42,409 bases of DNA, taken from the NCBI GenBank assembly GCA_902793375.1, contig CADBDE010000010.1, positions 1 to 42,409 of the forward strand, given 5' to 3'. Position 1 is the stretch's first letter; each line of letters begins with the position of its first letter. This document shows positions 11,666-19,627 of this stretch, in pieces. The notes beneath the pieces were generated by a model. That model did no database searches and was not told the origin of the DNA. It saw nothing but the letters and a program-made list of their open reading frames with translations. The translations under genes were made by a program, and so were the position numbers. This DNA comes from an uncultured Erysipelotrichaceae bacterium (GTDB taxonomy: Bacteria; Bacillota_I; Bacilli_A; RF39; UBA660).

Positions 11666-11772
11666 TTATTATTATTTATAAAAAACAATGTATACTAGTG
11701 TAAAAGAATAAAAAAAAGTAATATGTTTTTTATAATTATATGATATATTATTATTATAGTGGAGGTATTTAT

Positions 11773-12792
11773 ATGACAACAATTTATTTAGATAATGCAT
11801 ATATAGATATTCAAAAAGACTTTATAGACAAATATTTAACAAGTATTGATGAGAATTTTAAAAAGAATCCACAATTTATTTCAGAATTATTTACTGCTCT
11901 TCATTTTTTAACAAGGAAAAAAGATAATGAGGTTTTACCACCTTTTGAATTAAATGTTTATGATGATGGAAGAGGATTTGAAATAAGAAGTGGAATTAGA
12001 AAATGTCCAGATAATATTAATCCTGAATTACAAAATAATAAAAATTTTGATATGGTAAAATTTACATTAGATGATAAGAATAATATAGAGTTAACACAAT
12101 CAAATGGAGTTTTTTATAAATTTGAAGATTATGCAAAAATAGAAAAAGCTCCAGAATTAAAGTCAAAATATGAAATGCTTAATTCTAGAGATACACCAAC
12201 TGTTATTTCAACTTATCATACTCATACTACTATTTTGTCGAATGGAATTGAGGTTGAAAAGTCTTCTTATTCTGATCAATATCCTCTAGGTTTACCTTTT
12301 GAAAGTGATAGCGAATTAAAAAATCAAACAATGATTCATTCTCCAAGACAATGGTATTTTAATTCTATACCAGAACGTGCAAATTGGGAATTTAATCCGT
12401 TTAGTACAAATTCTTATAGATTTACTGAAACTCTTGGATTAGTTGTATCACAATTTAAATCTGGTAAATCTGGAATGGTTGAAGGAGCAGAATATCCAGC
12501 AAATACAGAATATCCAGATAAACTTGGTTGTTTTCCAACTCCAGTTAAAAAGTATGCTAATGGAAAAGAAGAAATTACCCCTGAATATCAGGAGTCATTT
12601 CCTGGAAAATCTGTATGGGATGTTGAAAAAGAGGTTAATATATCATTTAGAAAAGGTATAGATACTTCAAAAACAAAAGATATAAATCCTATTGTGTATG
12701 AGAATCTAAAAAATGTTACAGATGCAGCACTTGAAAGAAGATATGGATACACATTGGAAACTGAAGAAGAAACATATTCTCCAACTAGATAA
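11773..12792 (+). CDS. Hypothetical protein
   Basis: I recognise no family in this 339-residue soluble protein. It has no signal peptide or membrane helix. Notable segments are an HTHTTI run in the middle (STYHTHTTILSNGIEV) and aromatic- and Pro-rich stretches (HSPRQWYFNSIPERANWEFN). The start is the ATG at 11773 after GTGGAGGT; an upstream in-frame ATG at 11740 lacks a ribosome site. It stands alone between the htrA terminator and the first displaced rbgA-like start region. It could be part of the accessory block or mark its left border. Confidence 0.6.
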   Translation: MTTIYLDNAYIDIQKDFIDKYLTSIDENFKKNPQFISELFTALHFLTRKKDNEVLPPFELNVYDDGRGFEIRSGIRKCPDNINPELQNNKNFDMVKFTLDDKNNIELTQSNGVFYKFEDYAKIEKAPELKSKYEMLNSRDTPTVISTYHTHTTILSNGIEVEKSSYSDQYPLGLPFESDSELKNQTMIHSPRQWYFNSIPERANWEFNPFSTNSYRFTETLGLVVSQFKSGKSGMVEGAEYPANTEYPDKLGCFPTPVKKYANGKEEITPEYQESFPGKSVWDVEKEVNISFRKGIDTSKTKDINPIVYENLKNVTDAALERRYGYTLETEEETYSPTR

Positions 12793-12826
12793 AAAAAGAT
12801 AGTTAAAATGAAGTTGTAAGATAAAA

Positions 12827-12860
12827 GTAGACACAAAAAAGACGTGTTTACCTTTTCTTT
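12827..12860 (+). terminator. Terminator before rbgA-like start 1
   Basis: GTAGACAC (12827-12834) with GTGTTTAC (12844-12851, one G-T pair) followed by CCTTTTCTTTT. A -10-like GATAAAAT and an AGGAGTGATT ribosome site follow, the same order as in front of rbgA. Confidence 0.65.
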
Positions 12861-12891
12861 TGATAAAATGATTATACGAGGAGTGATTCTT

Positions 12892-13023
12892 ATGAGTAAT
12901 TCAAAAGAAAAAAGTGGGCTAGACAAAAACGTAATCAATTGGTTGATTACGGTTTATAGTAACTACTATAATAACCTAAAAATGGACGAAATAGTAATAA
13001 ATTTCGTTTTTTTTATGTTATAA
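12892..13023 (+). CDS. Small ORF with rbgA-like start region (remnant 1)
   Basis: A 43-codon ORF with a strong AGGAGTGATT ribosome site. Residues 1-17 end in VINW, matching the INW of RbgA residues 7-9; beyond that point the sequence departs (LITVYSNYY...). The second half runs through a terminator hairpin, so full translation is doubtful. The DNA from 12978 on (AAAAATGGACGAAAT, hairpin, TATAAT) is homologous to the DNA just in front of the intact rbgA start. Best read as a displaced old rbgA 5' end, not a functional gene. Confidence 0.5.
   Translation: MSNSKEKSGLDKNVINWLITVYSNYYNNLKMDEIVINFVFFML
12986..13014 (+). terminator. Terminator before rbgA-like start 2
   Basis: ACGAAAT (12986-12992) with ATTTCGT (13001-13007) then a T-run. 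Homologous to the hairpin in front of rbgA at 18728-18757. A TATAAT -10 box follows at 13019-13024. Confidence 0.8.
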
Positions 13024-13048
13024 TTAGTGCAGTTAGCAAGTGATTCTT

Positions 13049-13114
13049 ATGAGTAAAAAAGAAAAAGATAATTTGTCAGCAAAAATACAAATCAATTGGT
13101 TGATGACAATTTAG
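13049..13114 (+). CDS. Small ORF with rbgA-like start region (remnant 2)
   Basis: A 21-codon ORF behind TATAAT and AAGTGATTCTT, arranged as at rbgA. It encodes IQINW at residues 13-17, then LMTI and a stop. The bases around the Trp codon (ATCAATTGGTTGAT) equal those of remnant 1. It directly precedes the DUF488 gene. Probably a displaced start, or possibly a leader peptide. Confidence 0.5.
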   Translation: MSKKEKDNLSAKIQINWLMTI

Positions 13115-13142
13115 TCTAACTTTAAAAAAAAGAGGTGATAAA

Positions 13143-13658
13143 ATGAGTGATTTATCTAAAGTAATCTTAGGAACTGGTAATTATTATGATGTAAAAAGTG
13201 GTAATACTGTATCTGTTACAGGTGATGGTGGTAATGCTTGGGGATATTTTGGACCAGCATATAAAAAACTAGCTCCTAAACTAGTTACTTATACACCTTA
13301 TGCTGAAAAGTTAGAAGAATTAGAAAAATTGAAAGAGGATGTTTCTAAATTAAAAGAGTATGTTGAGTTTAGGAAACAAATAGAAGATGAATATATTAGG
13401 AGTTATTATGATATAAGATTAAAAGATTTAGATGTTAAAGATTTACTTTATATATTAAATGAGAAATTTGGTAATGATATAATATTGTTATGTCATGAAC
13501 CAATTGATGAATTTTGCCATAGAAGAATAATTGCGGATTATATAGAACTTGAAACAGGAATATATATTCCAGAAGTAAGTGTTGATGAGCAAGGTAATGT
13601 TAAAAAACTTGTTCCAATAAGATATAAAAATAGATTAAAAGAAGTAATGAATAAGTAG
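13143..13658 (+). CDS. DUF488 family protein
   Basis: A 171-residue product. It begins with a VILGTGNYYDVKSG strand-loop and GYFGPAYKKLAP, has a coiled central helix (~55-85), and carries the family signature ILLCHEPIDEFCHRRIIADY near residue 115, with Cys and Cys-His-Arg-Arg. DUF488 proteins are small cytosolic proteins of unknown biochemical function that often travel with defence or mobile regions. GAGGTGATAAA gives the start. It opens a unit with a tiny ORF, an unknown gene and a NUDIX gene, lying between rbgA-like remnants 2 and 3. Confidence 0.8.
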   Translation: MSDLSKVILGTGNYYDVKSGNTVSVTGDGGNAWGYFGPAYKKLAPKLVTYTPYAEKLEELEKLKEDVSKLKEYVEFRKQIEDEYIRSYYDIRLKDLDVKDLLYILNEKFGNDIILLCHEPIDEFCHRRIIADYIELETGIYIPEVSVDEQGNVKKLVPIRYKNRLKEVMNK

Positions 13659-13667
13659 GTGGTTTAC

Positions 13668-13745
13668 ATGAATAATAAAAATAAAAAGAATATAAATTGT
13701 TTAGCTTATAATATGCCGACGTATTTGTTAGTTTACAAAGGCTAA
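13668..13745 (+). CDS. Small ORF, degenerate rbgA-like start (candidate remnant 2b)
   Basis: A 25-codon ORF with GGTGG upstream. It encodes MNNKNKKNINC followed by LAYNMPTYLL. NIN aligns with NINW of RbgA and remnant 3, with Cys in place of Trp (TGT for TGG). The DNA ATGAATAATAAAAATAAAAA resembles the start of remnant 3. It has no terminator or promoter of its own. Assignment to the remnant family is tentative. Confidence 0.35.
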   Translation: MNNKNKKNINCLAYNMPTYLLVYKG

Positions 13746-13774
13746 GAGTATATAAAAACGAGGTGATTATTAAT

Positions 13775-14335
13775 ATGACAATTGATGAATTATTGACATA
13801 TTTAAAAAGCAGACAATTAAATAATAAAACAAATAATATGATTATTGTTGGAGATAAATTAAATGCATTAATAGATGATATTTCTGATGTAACAGATATT
13901 TCTTTTATAGATGATGATATTGATGTAGATGTAGCTTTAAATATCAAAATTGATTTATCAAAAGTTAGTGTTAAAGACATACTAACATATTCACTTAGTT
14001 ATCTAAAACAATTAAAACTTGTTGATGAATATTTTGATTATACATTACCATTTAATAATAAATTTGATATAGTAAAATATAGAAGCATATTACAAAAATA
14101 TAATAGAGTAGTTCAATTGGTTTGTTATAATATTGAGGAGTTATCTATAGAAGAACAAATGCTATTTAATGAATTGTATTATTATAATAGTTCATTTTTT
14201 ACTGTTATCTCATTAATTAAAGATAATTTTAAGACATATTTTTTAACTCAAGATAGAGTTTTAGATGATAGAGAAAATTATCAAAAATATGAAATAATTA
14301 AACCATATACACTAACAAAAGGAGAATGGAAATGA
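13775..14335 (+). CDS. Hypothetical protein
   Basis: A 186-residue acidic, Leu/Tyr-rich soluble protein of no family known to me. The N-terminus (MTIDELLTYLKSRQLNNKTN) and the repeated Asp-Ile pairs around residues 35-60 suggest a helical start followed by strands. ATG 13775 is preferred because CGAGGTGAT ends 8 bases upstream; the GTG at 13763 belongs to that site. The last codons overlap the start of the NUDIX gene by 4 bases (ATGA), so the two are translationally coupled. Confidence 0.6.
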   Translation: MTIDELLTYLKSRQLNNKTNNMIIVGDKLNALIDDISDVTDISFIDDDIDVDVALNIKIDLSKVSVKDILTYSLSYLKQLKLVDEYFDYTLPFNNKFDIVKYRSILQKYNRVVQLVCYNIEELSIEEQMLFNELYYYNSSFFTVISLIKDNFKTYFLTQDRVLDDRENYQKYEIIKPYTLTKGEWK

Positions 14336-15024
14336 ATAATGTAGTAAGAGTTGGAATTGGAGTAATGATTATAGACAATGATAAAATATTACTTGGTCAT
14401 AGATTAGCTAAAAGGAGTGATACAGGTGGGATACAAGAACCTGATTGTTGGTCATTACCTGGTGGAAAGCAAGAAATGTTTGAGACAATGTTTGAAGGTG
14501 CAAAAAGAGAAATAAAAGAAGAAACAAATTTAGATATAGATGAATTAGAATTGTTTGGAGCAGCAGATGATATTGCAAAAGATAGACATTTTGTAACACT
14601 TCATATTATTGCCAAATCTTTTAATGGGAAACTAATTGCTATGGAACCAGAAAAAGAAGATAAGTGGGAATGGTTTAGTTTAAATGAATTACCTGAAAAT
14701 ATATATTCTCCATCAAAAAAATTTATTGATAACTATTTAAAAAAGAGGAAATGTAATGAAAAAAGTAAGACAAAATTAACTCCTATATTTCAAACAAAAG
14801 AGCAAGAAGAGTTATTTGCAAGATGTAGCAAAGAATTAATGCATAAAACTATGACTGGTGAAATATCATATTTATCTATTGATGAATCTATGAATAATGT
14901 TAAATCTATTGTTTCATCAGTATTTCAAACAAAAGAGCAAGAAGAATTATTTGCAAGAATTGCTCAAGAAACTATGTTTAGGTATACAAATGAGGAAAAT
15001 GCCAAAAAGAAAATTTTAAAATAA
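14332..15024 (+). CDS. NUDIX hydrolase with C-terminal tandem repeat
   Basis: A 230-residue protein. The N-terminal ~140 residues form a NUDIX domain of the ADP-ribose/8-oxo-dGTP type: VGIGVMIIDNDKILLGHR, then a complete box GGKQEMFETMFEGAKREIKE followed by ETNL. A ~90-residue tail contains two copies of FQTKEQEELFAR (about 152-163 and 196-207) within longer similar helices. The tail is not part of the usual fold and may be a binding module. ATG 14332 is chosen, 7 bases after GGAG; ATG 14326 is too close. It overlaps the upstream unknown gene. Unrelated in detail to the NUDIX twins at 3 and 4 kb. Confidence 0.85.
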   Translation: MNNVVRVGIGVMIIDNDKILLGHRLAKRSDTGGIQEPDCWSLPGGKQEMFETMFEGAKREIKEETNLDIDELELFGAADDIAKDRHFVTLHIIAKSFNGKLIAMEPEKEDKWEWFSLNELPENIYSPSKKFIDNYLKKRKCNEKSKTKLTPIFQTKEQEELFARCSKELMHKTMTGEISYLSIDESMNNVKSIVSSVFQTKEQEELFARIAQETMFRYTNEENAKKKILK

Positions 15025-15041
15025 TAAAGGATGTGATCCAA

Positions 15042-15134
15042 ATGAATGAAAATAAAACTAATATCAACTGGTTGGTATCGATTTATCCAACACTTTCTAA
15101 AAAAACTTATAAAACAAGGATTTGCAAGATTTAA
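15042..15134 (+). CDS. Small ORF with rbgA-like start (remnant 3), stop codon in terminator loop
   Basis: A 30-codon ORF behind AAAGGATGTGAT. Its first ten residues, MNENKTNINW, closely match RbgA MDNKTNINW, and 18 bases (AAAACTAATATCAACTGG) are identical to rbgA at 18801-18818. After the Trp it continues LVSIYPTLSKKTYKTRICKI, shared with remnant 4. Its TAA lies in the loop of the following terminator. It lacks its own terminator/promoter upstream and is joined to the NUDIX gene. Either a displaced rbgA start capped by the inserted element, or an attenuator peptide. Confidence 0.55.
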   Translation: MNENKTNINWLVSIYPTLSKKTYKTRICKI

Positions 15135-15241
15135 AATCTTGCTTTTTTTTTATTAAAAGATAATAATATTATGTAAAAATAATAAAAAAGTTCAAAAAAA
15201 GCCATACCAAATAAGGGGTGGTATTTCCAGACAACACTTTC
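15072..15241 (+). repeat. Cassette left-end repeat, copy 1
   Basis: About 170 bases directly after the INW codons of remnant 3. They align throughout with 17463-17630: TTGGTATCGATTTATCCAAC, ACTTATAAAACAAGG, a terminator, ATTATGTAAAAAT, CAAATAAGGGGTGGTATTTC and AGACAACACTTT. ATACCA/TGGTAT can form a hairpin near the end. This looks like the conserved left end of an inserted element. Confidence 0.75.
15124..15150 (+). terminator. Terminator inside cassette left-end repeat 1
   Basis: GCAAGAT (15124-15130) with ATCTTGC (15136-15142), loop TTAAA containing the remnant 3 stop codon, then eight T. Confidence 0.9.
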
Positions 15242-15253
15242 CTAAGGCATATA

Positions 15254-15292
15254 GAAAATATGTTCGAATTAATAAATGAAATGTAGTATAAT
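15254..15292 (+). promoter_or_regulatory. Promoter of BRO/DinD-like gene 2 with LexA-like box
   Basis: GAAAATATGTTC (15254-15265) is one mismatch from GAAC-N4-GTTC and is followed by G. It overlaps the -35 position of a promoter whose -10 is TATAAT (15287-15292). A better match to the Gram-positive LexA consensus than the site at gene 1. Confidence 0.55.
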
Positions 15293-15328
15293 ATAAGTAG
15301 CTAATAAAAACATAAAGGGGGAATATAT

Positions 15329-16180
15329 ATGGACAATAAATTAGCAACAATTACAAATCTTTTTGAAGGAAAGGAAATTAGAAGTATCTGGGATGCTGAA
15401 AAAGAGGATTACTACTTTAGTGTTATTGATGTAATCAGTGTATTAACTGAAAGTAATGATCCATCTCATTATTGGAGAACATTAAAATCAAGAATGATTA
15501 AAGAAGGAAATGAAACCGTCACAAATTGTGACACTTTCAAATTTAAAGCAAAAGATGGAAAAATGAGGGAAACTGATACATTAGATACTAAAGGTATCTT
15601 TAGATTAATTGAATCAATTCCTTCACCTAAAGCTGAACCTTTTAAATTATGGTTAGCAAACTTAGGTAGTGAGAGAATAGATGAAGTATTTGATCCTGAA
15701 ATAGTTATAAAAAGAGCAATTGATTATTATAGGAAACGTGGTTATGATGATAGGTGGATTGAAACAAGGATTAAAGCAACATTAGATAGAAATAAATTAA
15801 CTGATGTTTGGAAGTCAGGAGGAATTACAGAAGACTTCGAATATGGTATTCTAACAAATGAAATATATAAAGAGTGGTCAGGAATGACTGCTTCAGAATA
15901 TAAATCTTATAAAAGAATTAGAAAAGAAAATCTAAGAGATAATATGTCAGATGTGGAAGTTGCTCTAACCAATCTTGGCGAAATAGCAACAAGAGAACTT
16001 ACAAAAGAATATAAACCATTTGGATTAGAACAAAATAAAAATATAGCTAAAATGGGTGGAAATACTGCTAAAGTTGCAAAAGATGATTTAGAAAGAAAAT
16101 TAGGAAAGAAGATAATATCATCAAATAACCAATTAAAATATAAATATAAAGATGATTATAAAATGATAGATAACAAATAA
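15329..16180 (+). CDS. BRO N-domain / DinD-like protein 2
   Basis: A 283-residue paralogue of the protein at 4577-5404. N-terminal BRO domain: IRSIWDAEKEDYYFSVIDVI, HYWRTLKSRMIKEGNETVTN and KAEPFKLWLANLGSERIDE. DinD-like C-terminal part: YGILTNEIYKEWSGMTASEY, KENLRDNMSDVEVALTNLGE and a basic tail. The start has AAAGGGGGAATATATATG. It is the first gene of the cassette following remnant 3. The predicted role is a DNA-binding protein in the damage response or in phage-type regulation. Two copies in two separate accessory blocks suggest repeated gain. Confidence 0.85.
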   Translation: MDNKLATITNLFEGKEIRSIWDAEKEDYYFSVIDVISVLTESNDPSHYWRTLKSRMIKEGNETVTNCDTFKFKAKDGKMRETDTLDTKGIFRLIESIPSPKAEPFKLWLANLGSERIDEVFDPEIVIKRAIDYYRKRGYDDRWIETRIKATLDRNKLTDVWKSGGITEDFEYGILTNEIYKEWSGMTASEYKSYKRIRKENLRDNMSDVEVALTNLGEIATRELTKEYKPFGLEQNKNIAKMGGNTAKVAKDDLERKLGKKIISSNNQLKYKYKDDYKMIDNK

Positions 16181-16207
16181 TTATGGTATAATTAGAATGG
16201 TGAGAAT

Positions 16208-17371
16208 ATGAACGAAAAACTAGAAAAAAGAAATCATTTTATTCATTTTATAGAAAAATGGTTTATTATAGGAATCATTTTATTTATAATTGTTCAATTA
16301 ACTGCCATTGGATTTATAAATATGGTTACTCCAAAGAGTCAAAGATTAAGTGATAAGCAATATGAAGAATATGATAAAGATTATATTGGACACTGGTACA
16401 ACGGAACTTTTTTTATTAATATGACAGTAAAAGAAAATTTTGAAAGCCAGAAAAAATATAGTGAAATGATTGAAGAAAGACGTAATGATATAGGAAATAA
16501 AATTTGTAGCATTGCTGGAGGAGTAGCTATGGCAGCAAGTCTTTCACTATTATGCATTGCTGGATATAAAGAAAGAAAAAAGAAATTATTAGAGGGAAAT
16601 GTACCAAATTATATTATTTTAGGTGGTCTATTCTTTCTATTATTTAAAATAATTGAAGAGATTCACTTGTTTATTGAAGTTTCATATTGGAGTAAATATA
16701 GTAAAGGATTTTTAAATACTGCAAGTTATTATCCTCAAATGCATTATATTTTTATTATTCCAGTTTTGCTTATTTTATTAGGATTGATATTAAGAAAAAA
16801 ACAAAGAAAAAAATTGAGATTATCAACAAATAATAATGATAAATTTATTAGAATAATTAGTATACTTACACTTACTATTGGAATTTCATTTATTATTTAT
16901 AGATTTGGAATAAGAATATATGAATTAGTAAATATGGATTCTAATAATATTAGATTACCATTCTATTATTATATTTTTGATCTTCCAAAAAATTATGCTG
17001 CTAGTGCATCTTCATATTCTAAATTAGTAATATTAAGATTTATAAAAGATTTACCAGTTTTCATTGCTTCATCAATTTCATTAATTATGTTTTATAAAAT
17101 AGCAATAACTTCTATTAAAGGTAAGATAATATCAAAAGATAATAATAAAAGATATAGAATTATATTTATTTCATTAATAGTTGCTTCATTAATCTTTAAT
17201 GTTTTAGGTATATTTGAAGTTAAATTACTGAATAATGAATTCTTATATCAATATAAAGAGGCAACTTATACAATTGCAATAAGAAGTTTAACTGAACCAT
17301 TATTTTATGGATTCTTTATATATTTATTCAAACATTATATAGAAATAAGTTACTCTTCAAATGATAAATAA
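16208..17371 (+). CDS. Multi-pass membrane protein of unknown function
   Basis: A 387-residue protein with about eight hydrophobic segments (roughly 18-40, 97-116, 132-152, 178-196, 210-230, 278-298, 315-335 and 365-382). A ~55-residue loop with Tyr, Trp and His lies between the first two. I recognise no family. It begins 27 bases after the BRO/DinD-like gene, behind GGTGAGAAT and a TATAAT-like box (16187-16192), and ends at a strong terminator. It is the second and last gene of the cassette between remnants 3 and 4. Its function may relate to its partner only by co-inheritance. Confidence 0.65.
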   Translation: MNEKLEKRNHFIHFIEKWFIIGIILFIIVQLTAIGFINMVTPKSQRLSDKQYEEYDKDYIGHWYNGTFFINMTVKENFESQKKYSEMIEERRNDIGNKICSIAGGVAMAASLSLLCIAGYKERKKKLLEGNVPNYIILGGLFFLLFKIIEEIHLFIEVSYWSKYSKGFLNTASYYPQMHYIFIIPVLLILLGLILRKKQRKKLRLSTNNNDKFIRIISILTLTIGISFIIYRFGIRIYELVNMDSNNIRLPFYYYIFDLPKNYAASASSYSKLVILRFIKDLPVFIASSISLIMFYKIAITSIKGKIISKDNNKRYRIIFISLIVASLIFNVLGIFEVKLLNNEFLYQYKEATYTIAIRSLTEPLFYGFFIYLFKHYIEISYSSNDK

Positions 17372-17376
17372 CTATT

Positions 17377-17403
17377 AGAGTAGATGAAAAATCTACTCTT
17401 TTA
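17377..17403 (+). terminator. Terminator before rbgA-like start 4
   Basis: AGAGTAGAT (17377-17385) with ATCTACTCT (17391-17399), loop GAAAA, then TTTTA. A -10 TATAAT follows at 17407-17412, so the order terminator - promoter - ribosome site - start is the same as at rbgA. Confidence 0.9.
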
Positions 17404-17435
17404 TGTTATAATTTTGTAGTTAGGAAGTGATTCTA

Positions 17436-17525
17436 ATGAGTGAAAGTAGACTTATTCAATGGTTGATATCGATTTATCCAACACTTTCTAAAAATGCTTA
17501 TAAAACAAGGCTTTGTGAGATTTGA
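17436..17525 (+). CDS. Small ORF with rbgA-like start (remnant 4), stop codon in terminator loop
   Basis: A 29-codon ORF: MSESRLIQW, then LISIYPTLSKNAYKTRLCEI. TATAAT is 23 bases before the ATG, the same spacing as at rbgA, and AGTGATTCTA corresponds to rbgA AGTGATTCCT. After the Trp codon the peptide equals remnant 3 at most positions. The TGA stop again lies in a terminator loop. Confidence 0.55.
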   Translation: MSESRLIQWLISIYPTLSKNAYKTRLCEI

Positions 17526-17630
17526 GATCTCACTTTTTTTATTAAAAAAACTAATATATTATGTAAAAATGAAAAAAATGGTCCAAAATGCCTCATCAAA
17601 TAAGGACTGGTATTTCCAGTCAACACTTTT
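17463..17630 (+). repeat. Cassette left-end repeat, copy 2
   Basis: Counterpart of 15072-15241, beginning at the same point after the Trp codon. The arms of the internal terminator differ but still pair, and GACTGG/CCAGTC replaces ATACCA/TGGTAT near the end. The remaining 17631-17767 is AT-rich and shows no feature beyond a possible weak promoter. Confidence 0.75.
17515..17540 (+). terminator. Terminator inside cassette left-end repeat 2
   Basis: GTGAGAT (17515-17521) with ATCTCAC (17527-17533), loop TTGAG containing the remnant 4 stop codon, then seven T. Confidence 0.9.
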
Positions 17631-17767
17631 GTTATTTATCATATAATAGTAATATTCTAATGATTAGTATAATCCTGTTTTTATTAACAATTATTAAACT
17701 AGAGAACACATACTATTTTCGTTGTTATATATTTTTTTCTATTATATAATATATTTAAGGTGATAAA

Positions 17768-18541
17768 ATGAAAAATAGTTATAACAAGCAACTAAACTCT
17801 TTTGCAAAAGAATATAGACGCTATATAAATGTTTATACAGAAAAACTCAATAGAGATATTAATAAATTAAAGAAAATCGAAAACAATGATGATAATGAAG
17901 AGGAAATCAAAAACATTAAACATGATATTAAAGTTGATCAAGATGAAATTACTTTTTCAATAAGAGTACTTAATTCAATAAGGATACCATTTTTAGAAGA
18001 TATTGAAGAAAGAAAAAATCTTGCTACATTTGTTGAAGAAATTAAGGAAGTTATTCCAAATGATGTTCCATTTGTATTTCATGGTTGTGGATTTATTGAT
18101 ACAGTAGAAGATATCATACAAAGTGGGGGCTTATATCCTCCAGCGGATAGAGGCTACGATGTTTCAGCTACTTCCCATTATATTTTTACTTGTACAAAAA
18201 GTGATATAAAGACTGCTTCAGAATATGCTAATAGAGAATATTGTATACCATATGGAGCTTTATTTGTACTTGCTCCAAAAGATGAGTTGGAAAAAGAAAA
18301 ATTTTTACATGTAGACGCACTTATTGCTAAAGGTAATAAAACTTTTGTTACTACAACGTCACTAAACTTTTATGAAGAACCAAATAGATTAGTAGCTATT
18401 ATAACAACAAGTGAAAATTTAGATAGATTAAAAGAATTAGCAAGAGAAAATGGATTAAATGATGATTTAATCGTAACTCATAATGAATTTATTCAAATAT
18501 GCAAACAAAAATATGGAAATAATAAACATGCTTCTATTTAA
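17768..18541 (+). CDS. Hypothetical protein with N-terminal coiled coil
   Basis: A 257-residue protein. Residues ~5-75 are charged and helical (coiled coil likely). The rest holds VPFVFHGCGFIDTVEDIIQS, GGLYPPADRG and IPYGALFVLAP. An HG motif followed by a Gly-Gly-Leu turn and a later Tyr-rich strand is faintly like ADP-ribosyltransferase folds, but I would not assign it. AAGGTGATAAA gives the start. It is the only gene of the cassette between remnant 4 and rbgA. After two in-frame stops (18539-18544) the frame stays open for 34 more codons with protein-like content, so the protein may have been longer once. Confidence 0.6.
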   Translation: MKNSYNKQLNSFAKEYRRYINVYTEKLNRDINKLKKIENNDDNEEEIKNIKHDIKVDQDEITFSIRVLNSIRIPFLEDIEERKNLATFVEEIKEVIPNDVPFVFHGCGFIDTVEDIIQSGGLYPPADRGYDVSATSHYIFTCTKSDIKTASEYANREYCIPYGALFVLAPKDELEKEKFLHVDALIAKGNKTFVTTTSLNFYEEPNRLVAIITTSENLDRLKELARENGLNDDLIVTHNEFIQICKQKYGNNKHASI

Positions 18542-18660
18542 TAATTATGTTGTAAACGAATAATTTTTATAAAGAATGAAGAAACTGAAAAAGTAATTAA
18601 AAAATTAAAATTATCAAGAGAAAGTGTGCTACATAAAGTACATTTATAATATTGCCATAT

Positions 18661-18711
18661 GCCCGGGCAACTATCATAGTTAACTTGGTATTGGATTAGT
18701 CTAACTATGAT
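18661..18711. repeat. GC palindrome and 10-bp inverted repeat upstream of rbgA
   Basis: GCCCGGGC (18661-18668) is a fully palindromic GC octamer in very AT-rich DNA. Next comes ATCATAGTTA (18673-18682) with TAACTATGAT (18702-18711), a perfect inverted repeat around a 19-base centre containing ACTTGGTATTGG. The part from GATTAGTCTAACTAT onward resembles sequence just after the INW codons of remnants 1 and 2. It could be a recombinase binding site or an RNA hairpin. Confidence 0.6.
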
Positions 18712-18727
18712 AAAAGACTTAAAAATG

Positions 18728-18757
18728 GACGAAACTATATAAAATTTCGTCTTTTTT
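18728..18757 (+). terminator. Terminator just upstream of rbgA promoter
   Basis: GACGAAA (18728-18734) with TTTCGTC (18745-18751), then six T. Homologous to 12986-13014. Confidence 0.85.
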
Positions 18758-18758
18758 A

Positions 18759-18767
18759 TGCTATAAT
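18759..18767 (+). promoter_or_regulatory. Extended -10 promoter of rbgA
   Basis: TGCTATAAT (18759-18767), 23 bases before the ATG. The same element and spacing recur before remnants 2 and 4. Confidence 0.7.
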
Positions 18768-18790
18768 TGAATAGAAATGGAGTGATTCCT

Positions 18791-19627
18791 ATGGATAATA
18801 AAACTAATATCAACTGGTATCCAGGACATATGGCTAAAGCTAAAAGAGAATTAAAAGAGAATATGCCATTAATCGATATTGTATATGAGGTAATTGATGC
18901 AAGAATGCCAATTAGTTCAAAAGTTGCAGATATAAACGATATTATTAAAGGCAAACCTAAAATCTTAGTTGTTTCTAAATATGATATATGTGATAAAACT
19001 ATTACTGATAAATTACTCGAAAAATATAGTGATTATACGATAGTTAAATGTGATTTATTGAATGGTAATACTAACGAATTGATTAATAAGACCAAAGAAT
19101 TATCAAAAGCAATAAATGATGAAAGACAAAAGAAAGGCTTAAAACCAAGAAAGACTAGGGTAGTAGTTGTTGGTTCTCCTAATGTTGGAAAAAGTACATT
19201 AATTAATAAACTTGCTGGGAAAAAAGTTGTTCAAACTGGAAACACTCCTGGTGTTACTAAATCACTTGGATGGGTTCGTATTAATAATGATATTGAATTA
19301 ATGGACTCTCCTGGAATACTTTGGCCTAAAATTGATGATCAAGATAGTGCTCATATACTTGCAGCTTTATCTTCAATTAAAGAAGAAATATTAGATGTTG
19401 AAGATTTAGCAAGATTTATAATTAATAAACTAATAGAGCTATATCCAAATAATTTAAAAGAAAGGTATAAATTATATGATATTAATCTAGATACAATTTA
19501 TGATGAAATTGCAAAAAAAAGAGGCCTTTTAATAAAAGGCGGTCTTATTGATTATGATAAAGTATATTTAACAATTGTAAGAGATTTAAAAGATTCTAAG
19601 TTTGGTAATATTACCCTTGATAGATAA
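18791..19627 (+). CDS. rbgA: Ribosome biogenesis GTPase RbgA (YlqF)
   Basis: A 278-residue circularly permuted GTPase. The N-terminal INWYPGHMAKAKRE is the family hallmark. The motifs come in permuted order: G4 as SKYD (~63-66), G1 GSPNVGKST (~130-138), G2 around TPGVTKS, and G3 DSPG (~175-178), followed by the C-terminal ribosome-binding domain. RbgA acts late in 50S subunit assembly, before uL16 and bL27 join. G4 is normally NKxD; here Asn is Ser. ATG 18791 is set by GGAGTGATT; an ATG at 18767 lies on the -10 box. In many Firmicutes rnhB follows directly; here it is 4.4 kb away. This is the intact end of the array of displaced starts. Confidence 0.93.
   Translation: MDNKTNINWYPGHMAKAKRELKENMPLIDIVYEVIDARMPISSKVADINDIIKGKPKILVVSKYDICDKTITDKLLEKYSDYTIVKCDLLNGNTNELINKTKELSKAINDERQKKGLKPRKTRVVVVGSPNVGKSTLINKLAGKKVVQTGNTPGVTKSLGWVRINNDIELMDSPGILWPKIDDQDSAHILAALSSIKEEILDVEDLARFIINKLIELYPNNLKERYKLYDINLDTIYDEIAKKRGLLIKGGLIDYDKVYLTIVRDLKDSKFGNITLDR

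Follow-up and report, generated by a model that had tools for sequence, protein, structure and literature searches.

Arrays of gene cassettes are known mainly from integrons, in which a tyrosine recombinase acts on folded attC sites. SCC/SCCmec elements and the Enterococcus cassette chromosome (ECC) carry the large serine recombinases (LSRs) ccrAB and occupy the 3′ end of rlmH. The gene considered here is rbgA, an essential gene of ribosome assembly that encodes a GTPase. Tn5253 enters the start of this gene at a conserved 11-bp core, downstream of the core, and restores the gene (PMC8571831), and a tyrosine integrase is reported for the streptococcal ICEs found in rbgA (PMC4701971).

In this study, we analysed a window of 42,409 nucleotides (contig CADBDE010000010.1) from an uncultured Erysipelotrichaceae bacterium together with related loci, mostly from draft MAGs, the whole analysis being sequence-based. 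An earlier note on this DNA had singled out two small ORFs ending in terminator loops and had offered two readings, translation-controlled attenuation of cassette genes or a way of stopping transcription and translation that enter from a displaced rbgA start. In the window, a row of five cassettes stands between a gene at 11740-12792 and rbgA. No earlier description of such rbgA cassette arrays was found in the open-access literature searched.

Displaced rbgA starts and the cassette row

The insertion site lies inside rbgA codons, at the core ATHAAYTGG, and five junctions are directly seen 5′ of intact rbgA, at 12934, 13091, 13692, 15063 and 17454 (the degraded one at 13692 was recognised by eye in the sequence and not by the profile described below). 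Here the displaced starts run on in frame, at Ile-Asn/Gln-Trp codons, into the left end of the inserted cassette. Both small ORFs were confirmed, the first at 15042-15134 (peptide MNENKTNINWLVSIYPTLSKKTYKTRICKI, then a stop) and the second at 17436-17525 (peptide MSESRLIQWLISIYPTLSKNAYKTRLCEI, then a stop). They have the first codons of intact rbgA in common (MNENKTNINW/LVSIYP... and MSESRLIQW/LISIYP..., the slash marking the junction) and diverge right after Trp. Both are orphaned rbgA 5′ ends, not dedicated leader peptides, and the earlier note's suggestion of a displaced rbgA start bordering an inserted element is borne out by the junctions. The features of the row are as follows.

12892-13023, + strand: displaced rbgA start 1, MSNSKEKSGLDKNVINW/LITVYSNYY..., core at 12934 (ORF list, junction search, profile)
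12934-13090, + strand: cassette 1, 157 bp, apparently decayed, without a gene of its own (core-to-core interval)
13049-13114, + strand: displaced rbgA start 2, MSKKEKDNLSAKIQINW/LMTI and stop, core at 13091 (junction search)
13091-13691, + strand: cassette 2, DUF488-like gene 13143-13658 (domain match, related cassette)
13668-13745, + strand: displaced rbgA start 3, MNNKNKKNINC/LAYNMPTYLL..., core at 13692, degraded (ORF and sequence)
13692-15062, + strand: cassette 3, unknown gene 13775-14335 and NUDIX gene 14332-15024 (ORFs, domains)
15042-15134, + strand: displaced rbgA start 4, core ATCAACTGG at 15063, stop TAA 15132-15134 forming the loop (ORF, junction, hairpin)
15063-17453, + strand: cassette 4, left end 15063-15245, Bro-N gene 15329-16180, membrane protein 16208-17371 (repeat, domains, profile)
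15124-15151, + strand: predicted terminator hairpin and T-tract, left end of cassette 4 (hairpin scan and folding energy)
17384-17412, + strand: promoter-like site ATGAAA-17-TATAAT with TG before, for displaced start 5; overlaps the terminator of the preceding gene (promoter scan)
17436-17525, + strand: displaced rbgA start 5, core ATTCAATGG at 17454, stop TGA 17523-17525 forming the loop (ORF, profile, hairpin)
17454-18808, + strand: cassette 5, left end 17454-17629, unknown gene 17768-18541 (repeat, profile)
17515-17540, + strand: predicted terminator hairpin and T-tract, left end of cassette 5 (hairpin scan and folding energy)
18791-19627, + strand: intact rbgA, 278 aa, core at 18809, MDNKTNINW/YPGHMAK (homology)

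The right end of cassette 5 comprises promoter, ribosome-binding site and the new rbgA start, and a relative of cassette 2 in another locus (L135) matches it at 85% over 756 bp. As for the cargo, the 257-aa protein of cassette 5 (17768-18538) found no match in Pfam, NCBIfam or PADLOC. The Bro-N protein of cassette 4 (15329-16177) matches the PADLOC candidate defence model PDC-S13 (E 2e-112), and related Bro-N genes recur in other cassettes; a contig end of the same genome (L187, G000:C28, 5692-9700) holds a further Bro-N gene together with a short tyrosine recombinase that seems to have suffered an internal deletion. The NUDIX-gene ORF contains in its C-terminal part a 38-nt direct repeat (97%; 14786-14823 and 14921-14958) coding for a repeated FQTKEQEELFAR motif.

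Stop codons and hairpins at the left ends

The stop codons do lie in terminator loops, as the earlier note had claimed, and each is the exact 3-nt loop of a hairpin of eight pairs: TAA in the hairpin 15124-15142, with T9 directly 3′, and TGA in the hairpin 17515-17533, with T7 directly 3′. Their predicted folding energies are -8.2 and -8.9 kcal/mol, respectively (z ~ -2.6), and terminator-like sites in 12780-18850 number nine, against 0.9 expected from shuffles. A known leader or attenuator family was rejected, the window giving no Rfam match. Both sites are copies of one 104-nt repeat with 82% identity, so that they are homologous and do not count as two independent cases. The stems had been described as different in sequence but perfectly paired, and hence conserved in structure. 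This holds for the two window copies, which carry compensatory changes (GCAAGAT/ATCTTGC in the first, GTGAGAT/ATCTCAC in the second). Across homologous left ends the hairpin is not kept: covariation support was absent among 49 of them with fixed core-to-box spacing, where the helix was 63.6% paired against 62.1% after row shuffling (27 of 500 shuffles reached the value). RNAalifold gave no consensus structure for +0 to +110 of the 49 left ends, and hairpin energy showed no gain over re-paired arms once the sub-lineage of the window was left out.

The position of the stop, by contrast, is often kept across left ends. The box ATCTTGC lies exactly at +73 from the core in 45 of the 53 left ends having it, and a palindrome-like motif, CCTTATAAAATAAGG, keeps a fixed spacing of +43 to +57 (e.g., the L099 7739 locus). 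A stop is reached by +69 in 81 of 92 left ends, TAA, TGA and TAG all being used. Of 28 left ends with a frame still open at +69, 26 have a stop exactly there, versus 2 of 21 closed earlier (Fisher p 2e-9, which overstates the evidence because the left ends are related and represent few independent cases or clades); at 75% non-redundancy the counts are 8 of 9 open versus 1 of 14 closed frames.

One hypothesis is that the +69 stop and the +73 box are mainly DNA-level features of recombination or of the left-end module, and that the hairpin in the window is an incidental by-product. The exact spacing of box and palindrome-like motif speaks for it, as does the fact that conserved left-end motifs put stops in other frames too. 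On the other hand, short left ends without the box form valid cassettes (window 13091, L066, L072 and L135), so that the box is not essential for a boundary, and the perfect hairpin and T-tract with compensatory change in the window copies suggest selection for termination. We regard this hypothesis as unlikely, albeit worth serious consideration. The second option of the earlier note, that the left end stops transcription and translation coming from the displaced rbgA start, fits the sequences best, and we infer that the terminator is functional and serves as insulation.

A strong stem with T-tract, by cut-offs chosen by hand while viewing the data, was present in 4 of 53 scored left ends, and was found in the window copies, G001, G003 and L170. 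Most left ends of the family that retain the +69 stop do not have a strong hairpin with it, and stop and hairpin are therefore not a coupled device there; the stop-in-loop device is real in the sub-lineage of the window but is not a conserved switch family-wide. This weighs against translation-controlled attenuation, in which a ribosome at the loop stop codon would open the terminator and let RNA polymerase read into the cassette genes. Attenuation would agree with the exact coincidence of stop and loop in both copies, the compensatory changes, the +69 contrast and the presence of the hairpin in both G001 and G003. However, the helix is without family-wide support, the contrast itself rests on few independent clades, and many homologues stop at +6, +21 or +51, never reaching the loop. 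Moreover, the peptide shows neither a run of codons nor any sensor feature, and in copy 2 two further promoter-like sites lie between terminator and gene (17620-17647 and 17722-17750). Attenuation thus becomes very improbable.

Insulation, by contrast, would predict promoters placed as in copy 2, both before the stranded start and between terminator and gene, a weak agreement because the scan of the array region found fewer sites than in shuffles and the promoters are weakly supported accordingly. Copy 1 is without a clear promoter of its own and starts ~17 nt after the NUDIX gene, so that the terminator there may simply end that operon. A sequence combining a terminator tail with a -10 element occurs in three copies (13000-13025, 17388-17413 and 18743-18768), directly before displaced or intact rbgA starts; it reads AATTTCGTYTTTTTTATGYTATAATT in two of them, the copy at 17388 being a variant.

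Arrays in relatives, shared units and candidate recombinases

A repeat-based search retrieved copies in neighbours, and rbgA searches retrieved anchored loci. Because an early regular expression meant for displaced starts picked up unrelated short ORFs, on either strand, as well, a nucleotide profile of left ends, built from 48 junctions, was used instead; these junctions came from a similar expression, so the profile is not blind to the core. It yielded 94 displaced cores in 38 of 108 non-redundant rbgA-region loci, and among the 80 named rbgA-anchored loci all 38 profile matches share the strand of rbgA and precede the gene. The median distance from core to core is 1008 bp, with 118 of 121 intervals below 3 kb. 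In the largest array, with 18 left ends (L209), and in that of L099, with 11, left ends alternate with genes, mostly single ORFs. The site carries integron-like arrays in a family of uncultured, mostly gut-derived Bacilli, the integron-like feature being tandem, co-oriented cassettes of mostly one gene each. One array (G014:C5) is far from rbgA on its contig, and its link to the gene is by inference across contigs only. Contig ends within 1.5 kb of rbgA fall upstream in 38 of 80 loci versus downstream in 4 of 80, as expected for a repetitive and variable spot.

Among 193 genomes of the family, 32 contain the strict core pattern; a class-wide sample of 395 genomes gave 14, only one of which is outside the family. 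Read backwards, the pattern gave two matches in the family set, and it was absent from IMG/VR viral contigs. The cargo includes GNAT acetyltransferases, methyltransferases, queuosine salvage, peptidase S51 and NADAR, as well as dUTPase, RhuM, Bro-N and KilA-N proteins.

Cassette boundaries are directly seen where two genomes have the same unit in common. L080 and L082 share 2594 bp at 97.4%, starting at base 1 of one core and ending at base 8 of the following core, where (on the right) the alignment stops inside ATYAACTG; the adjoining rbgA genes are 67.6% identical. L168 and L172 share 334 bp at 94.9% (rbgA 70%) with ends that behave likewise, and L143 and L173 share 541 bp at 90.9%, ending at core +10. 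Overall, 16 of 164 shared upstream segments have ends no more than 45 nt from a core in either genome of the pair, versus 3.3 expected from random placement (maximum 6 in 500 trials), where the 45-nt limit was chosen by hand while viewing the data and some segments end simply at a contig end. As only about one in ten shared segments ends at a core, erosion and ordinary homologous exchange also occur. Neither an excised circle nor an empty site was seen in the sequences analysed.

The L080/L082 unit encodes an LSR of 406-412 aa and a second protein of 280 aa. In several loci, larger LSR pairs (~566 and ~522 aa), with Resolvase, Recombinase and Zn_ribbon domains, stand directly upstream of rbgA; their matches to the NCBIfam CcrB and CcrA models are weak (CcrB E 7e-27, 94 bits against a cut-off of 900). 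One contig of G211 bears, in order, the array with 18 left ends, an ICE of ~39 kb and rbgA. This ICE contains a MobL relaxase, VirB4-like and VirD4-like proteins, a type I restriction-modification (R-M) region and, as can be directly seen, an LSR pair abutting rbgA; the profile of cassette left ends also recognises the left end of the ICE (E 3e-16). The likely helper would be such an ICE with its CcrAB-like LSR pair, or a related single-LSR cassette, using the same site, and we infer that these LSRs move the cassettes in trans. The window contains no LSR of the type adjacent to rbgA. LSRs elsewhere in the same genome (C12, C2 and C4) were rejected as helpers, being distant relatives of the rbgA pair (~31-37% identity, and this along part of the protein only). 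The array-bearing genomes G023 and G044 contain no LSR at all; their tyrosine recombinase pairs (~430-450 aa) were rejected too, because they sit in mobilisable-type elements adjoining secA. An in-frame rbgA-LSR fusion, suggested by the N-terminal 'NWLVGVY', was ruled out by the LSR's own start MAGRGKKK and its homologues.

A tyrosine integrase of the Tn5253/streptococcal ICE type might move the cassettes instead, given that Tn5253 uses the same site (PMC8571831) and that streptococcal ICEs entering the 5′ end of rbgA are reported with such an enzyme (PMC4701971). Yet no PF00589 gene is present in the window, and the tyrosine recombinase of the G211 ICE belongs to the hsdS region of type I R-M whereas the LSR pair abuts rbgA, so that we give this alternative little credence. 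Another proposal, that arrays arose by homologous recombination between rbgA 5′ ends without a site-specific recombinase, draws on the rbgA start region that right ends have in common across genomes, but is very improbable given that shared units lose their identity inside the 8-9 bp core at either end, that the flanks are non-homologous, and that LSR pairs and an ICE occupy the same site.

Two side observations concern the G211 ICE. In its stretch L224 5147-8602, the tyrosine recombinase gene is flanked on either side by an hsdS-like gene, an arrangement known from hsdS inversion systems. A second conserved left-end stretch, AAGGRSTGGTATTTCCAGWCAACACTTT, at 15196-15240 and 17585-17629 of the window, resembles the left end of the ICE (L209 ~16060-16090); it also resembles the rbgA sequence CTGGTATCCAGG and may be an extra recombinase site.

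Proposed mechanism and comparison with known systems

We propose that a mobile cassette inserts site-specifically within the Ile-Asn/Gln-Trp codons near the start of rbgA, where its right end would supply rbgA with a new ribosome-binding site, a new start codon and the codons next to it, and sometimes a promoter, so that the essential gene stays intact. The old start would stay behind, fused in frame with the cassette left end, and further insertions would add up to a tandem array in front of the gene. The left end would close the stranded frame within ~70 nt; in the sub-lineage of the window, a dyad at the end of this frame may have evolved into an intrinsic terminator, whose most likely role is to shield the cassette from transcription off the displaced start. 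The ICE-borne CcrAB-like LSR pair, or a single-LSR cassette, at the same site would be the likely recombinase. Judged from sequence comparison, this model as a whole, from orphaned starts and array build-up to the insulating terminator and the likely LSR pair, is in our view well founded and probably correct. More tentatively, and with somewhat less than even confidence, we suggest a standing gene-capture system built on LSRs and an essential gene and functionally equivalent to an integron: the rbgA start would be the capture site, cassettes of ~1 kb would bring a replacement rbgA start and a left-end shut-off module, the recombinase would come in trans from ICEs or single-LSR cassettes, and the cassette pool would be common to a whole family of gut Bacilli. 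The arrays would then explain fast turnover of accessory genes in this family, and would illustrate how an element can enter an essential gene many times while expression is kept, the start being replaced and the old one silenced.

SCC and ECC resemble this locus in having a neighbouring LSR pair (here a distant CcrA/CcrB match), a fixed site within a conserved gene related to the ribosome, units that occur in tandem or lack a recombinase, and variable cargo. They differ in using the rlmH 3′ end with a TATCATAA core, whereas here the rbgA 5′ end with ATHAAYTGG is used, mostly single-gene units of ~1 kb are found, an ICE is the putative helper and LSR scores fall far below the Ccr equivalog cut-offs. 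With the Tn5253-type ICEs of streptococci and enterococci, the locus has in common the gene, the start region and an element end that restores the rbgA reading frame (PMC8571831). In contrast, those are single large ICEs with a reported tyrosine integrase (PMC4701971), while here an LSR pair abuts rbgA; an array of small cassettes, as found here, does not appear in the available portions of either report (PMC8571831; PMC4701971).

Leader-peptide attenuators likewise have a short ORF overlapping an intrinsic terminator, but the ORF here is a gene remnant, the overlap is not conserved and no regulatory codon pattern is present. In CIMEs and ICE accretion arrays, integrase-less att-flanked units are stacked beside an ICE of the same specificity, and the G211 contig has this arrangement, att-flanked units without recombinase or conjugation genes being followed by the ICE and then rbgA; the units here are many more and much smaller, with about one gene each.

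Integrons and CALINs are likened to these arrays by tandem, co-oriented, mostly single-gene cassettes with short conserved sites between them, often without an integrase. Unlike them, the arrays described here gave no IntI in the Pfam hits tabulated for 46 array ORFs and no folded attC in the RNAalifold analysis of 49 left ends, and their attachment site lies inside an essential gene, which each insertion has to rebuild. Numbering as many as 18 units, mostly of one gene and all in one orientation, and sited where an essential GTPase gene begins, beside a serine-recombinase ICE, they would represent a different route to the integron lifestyle.
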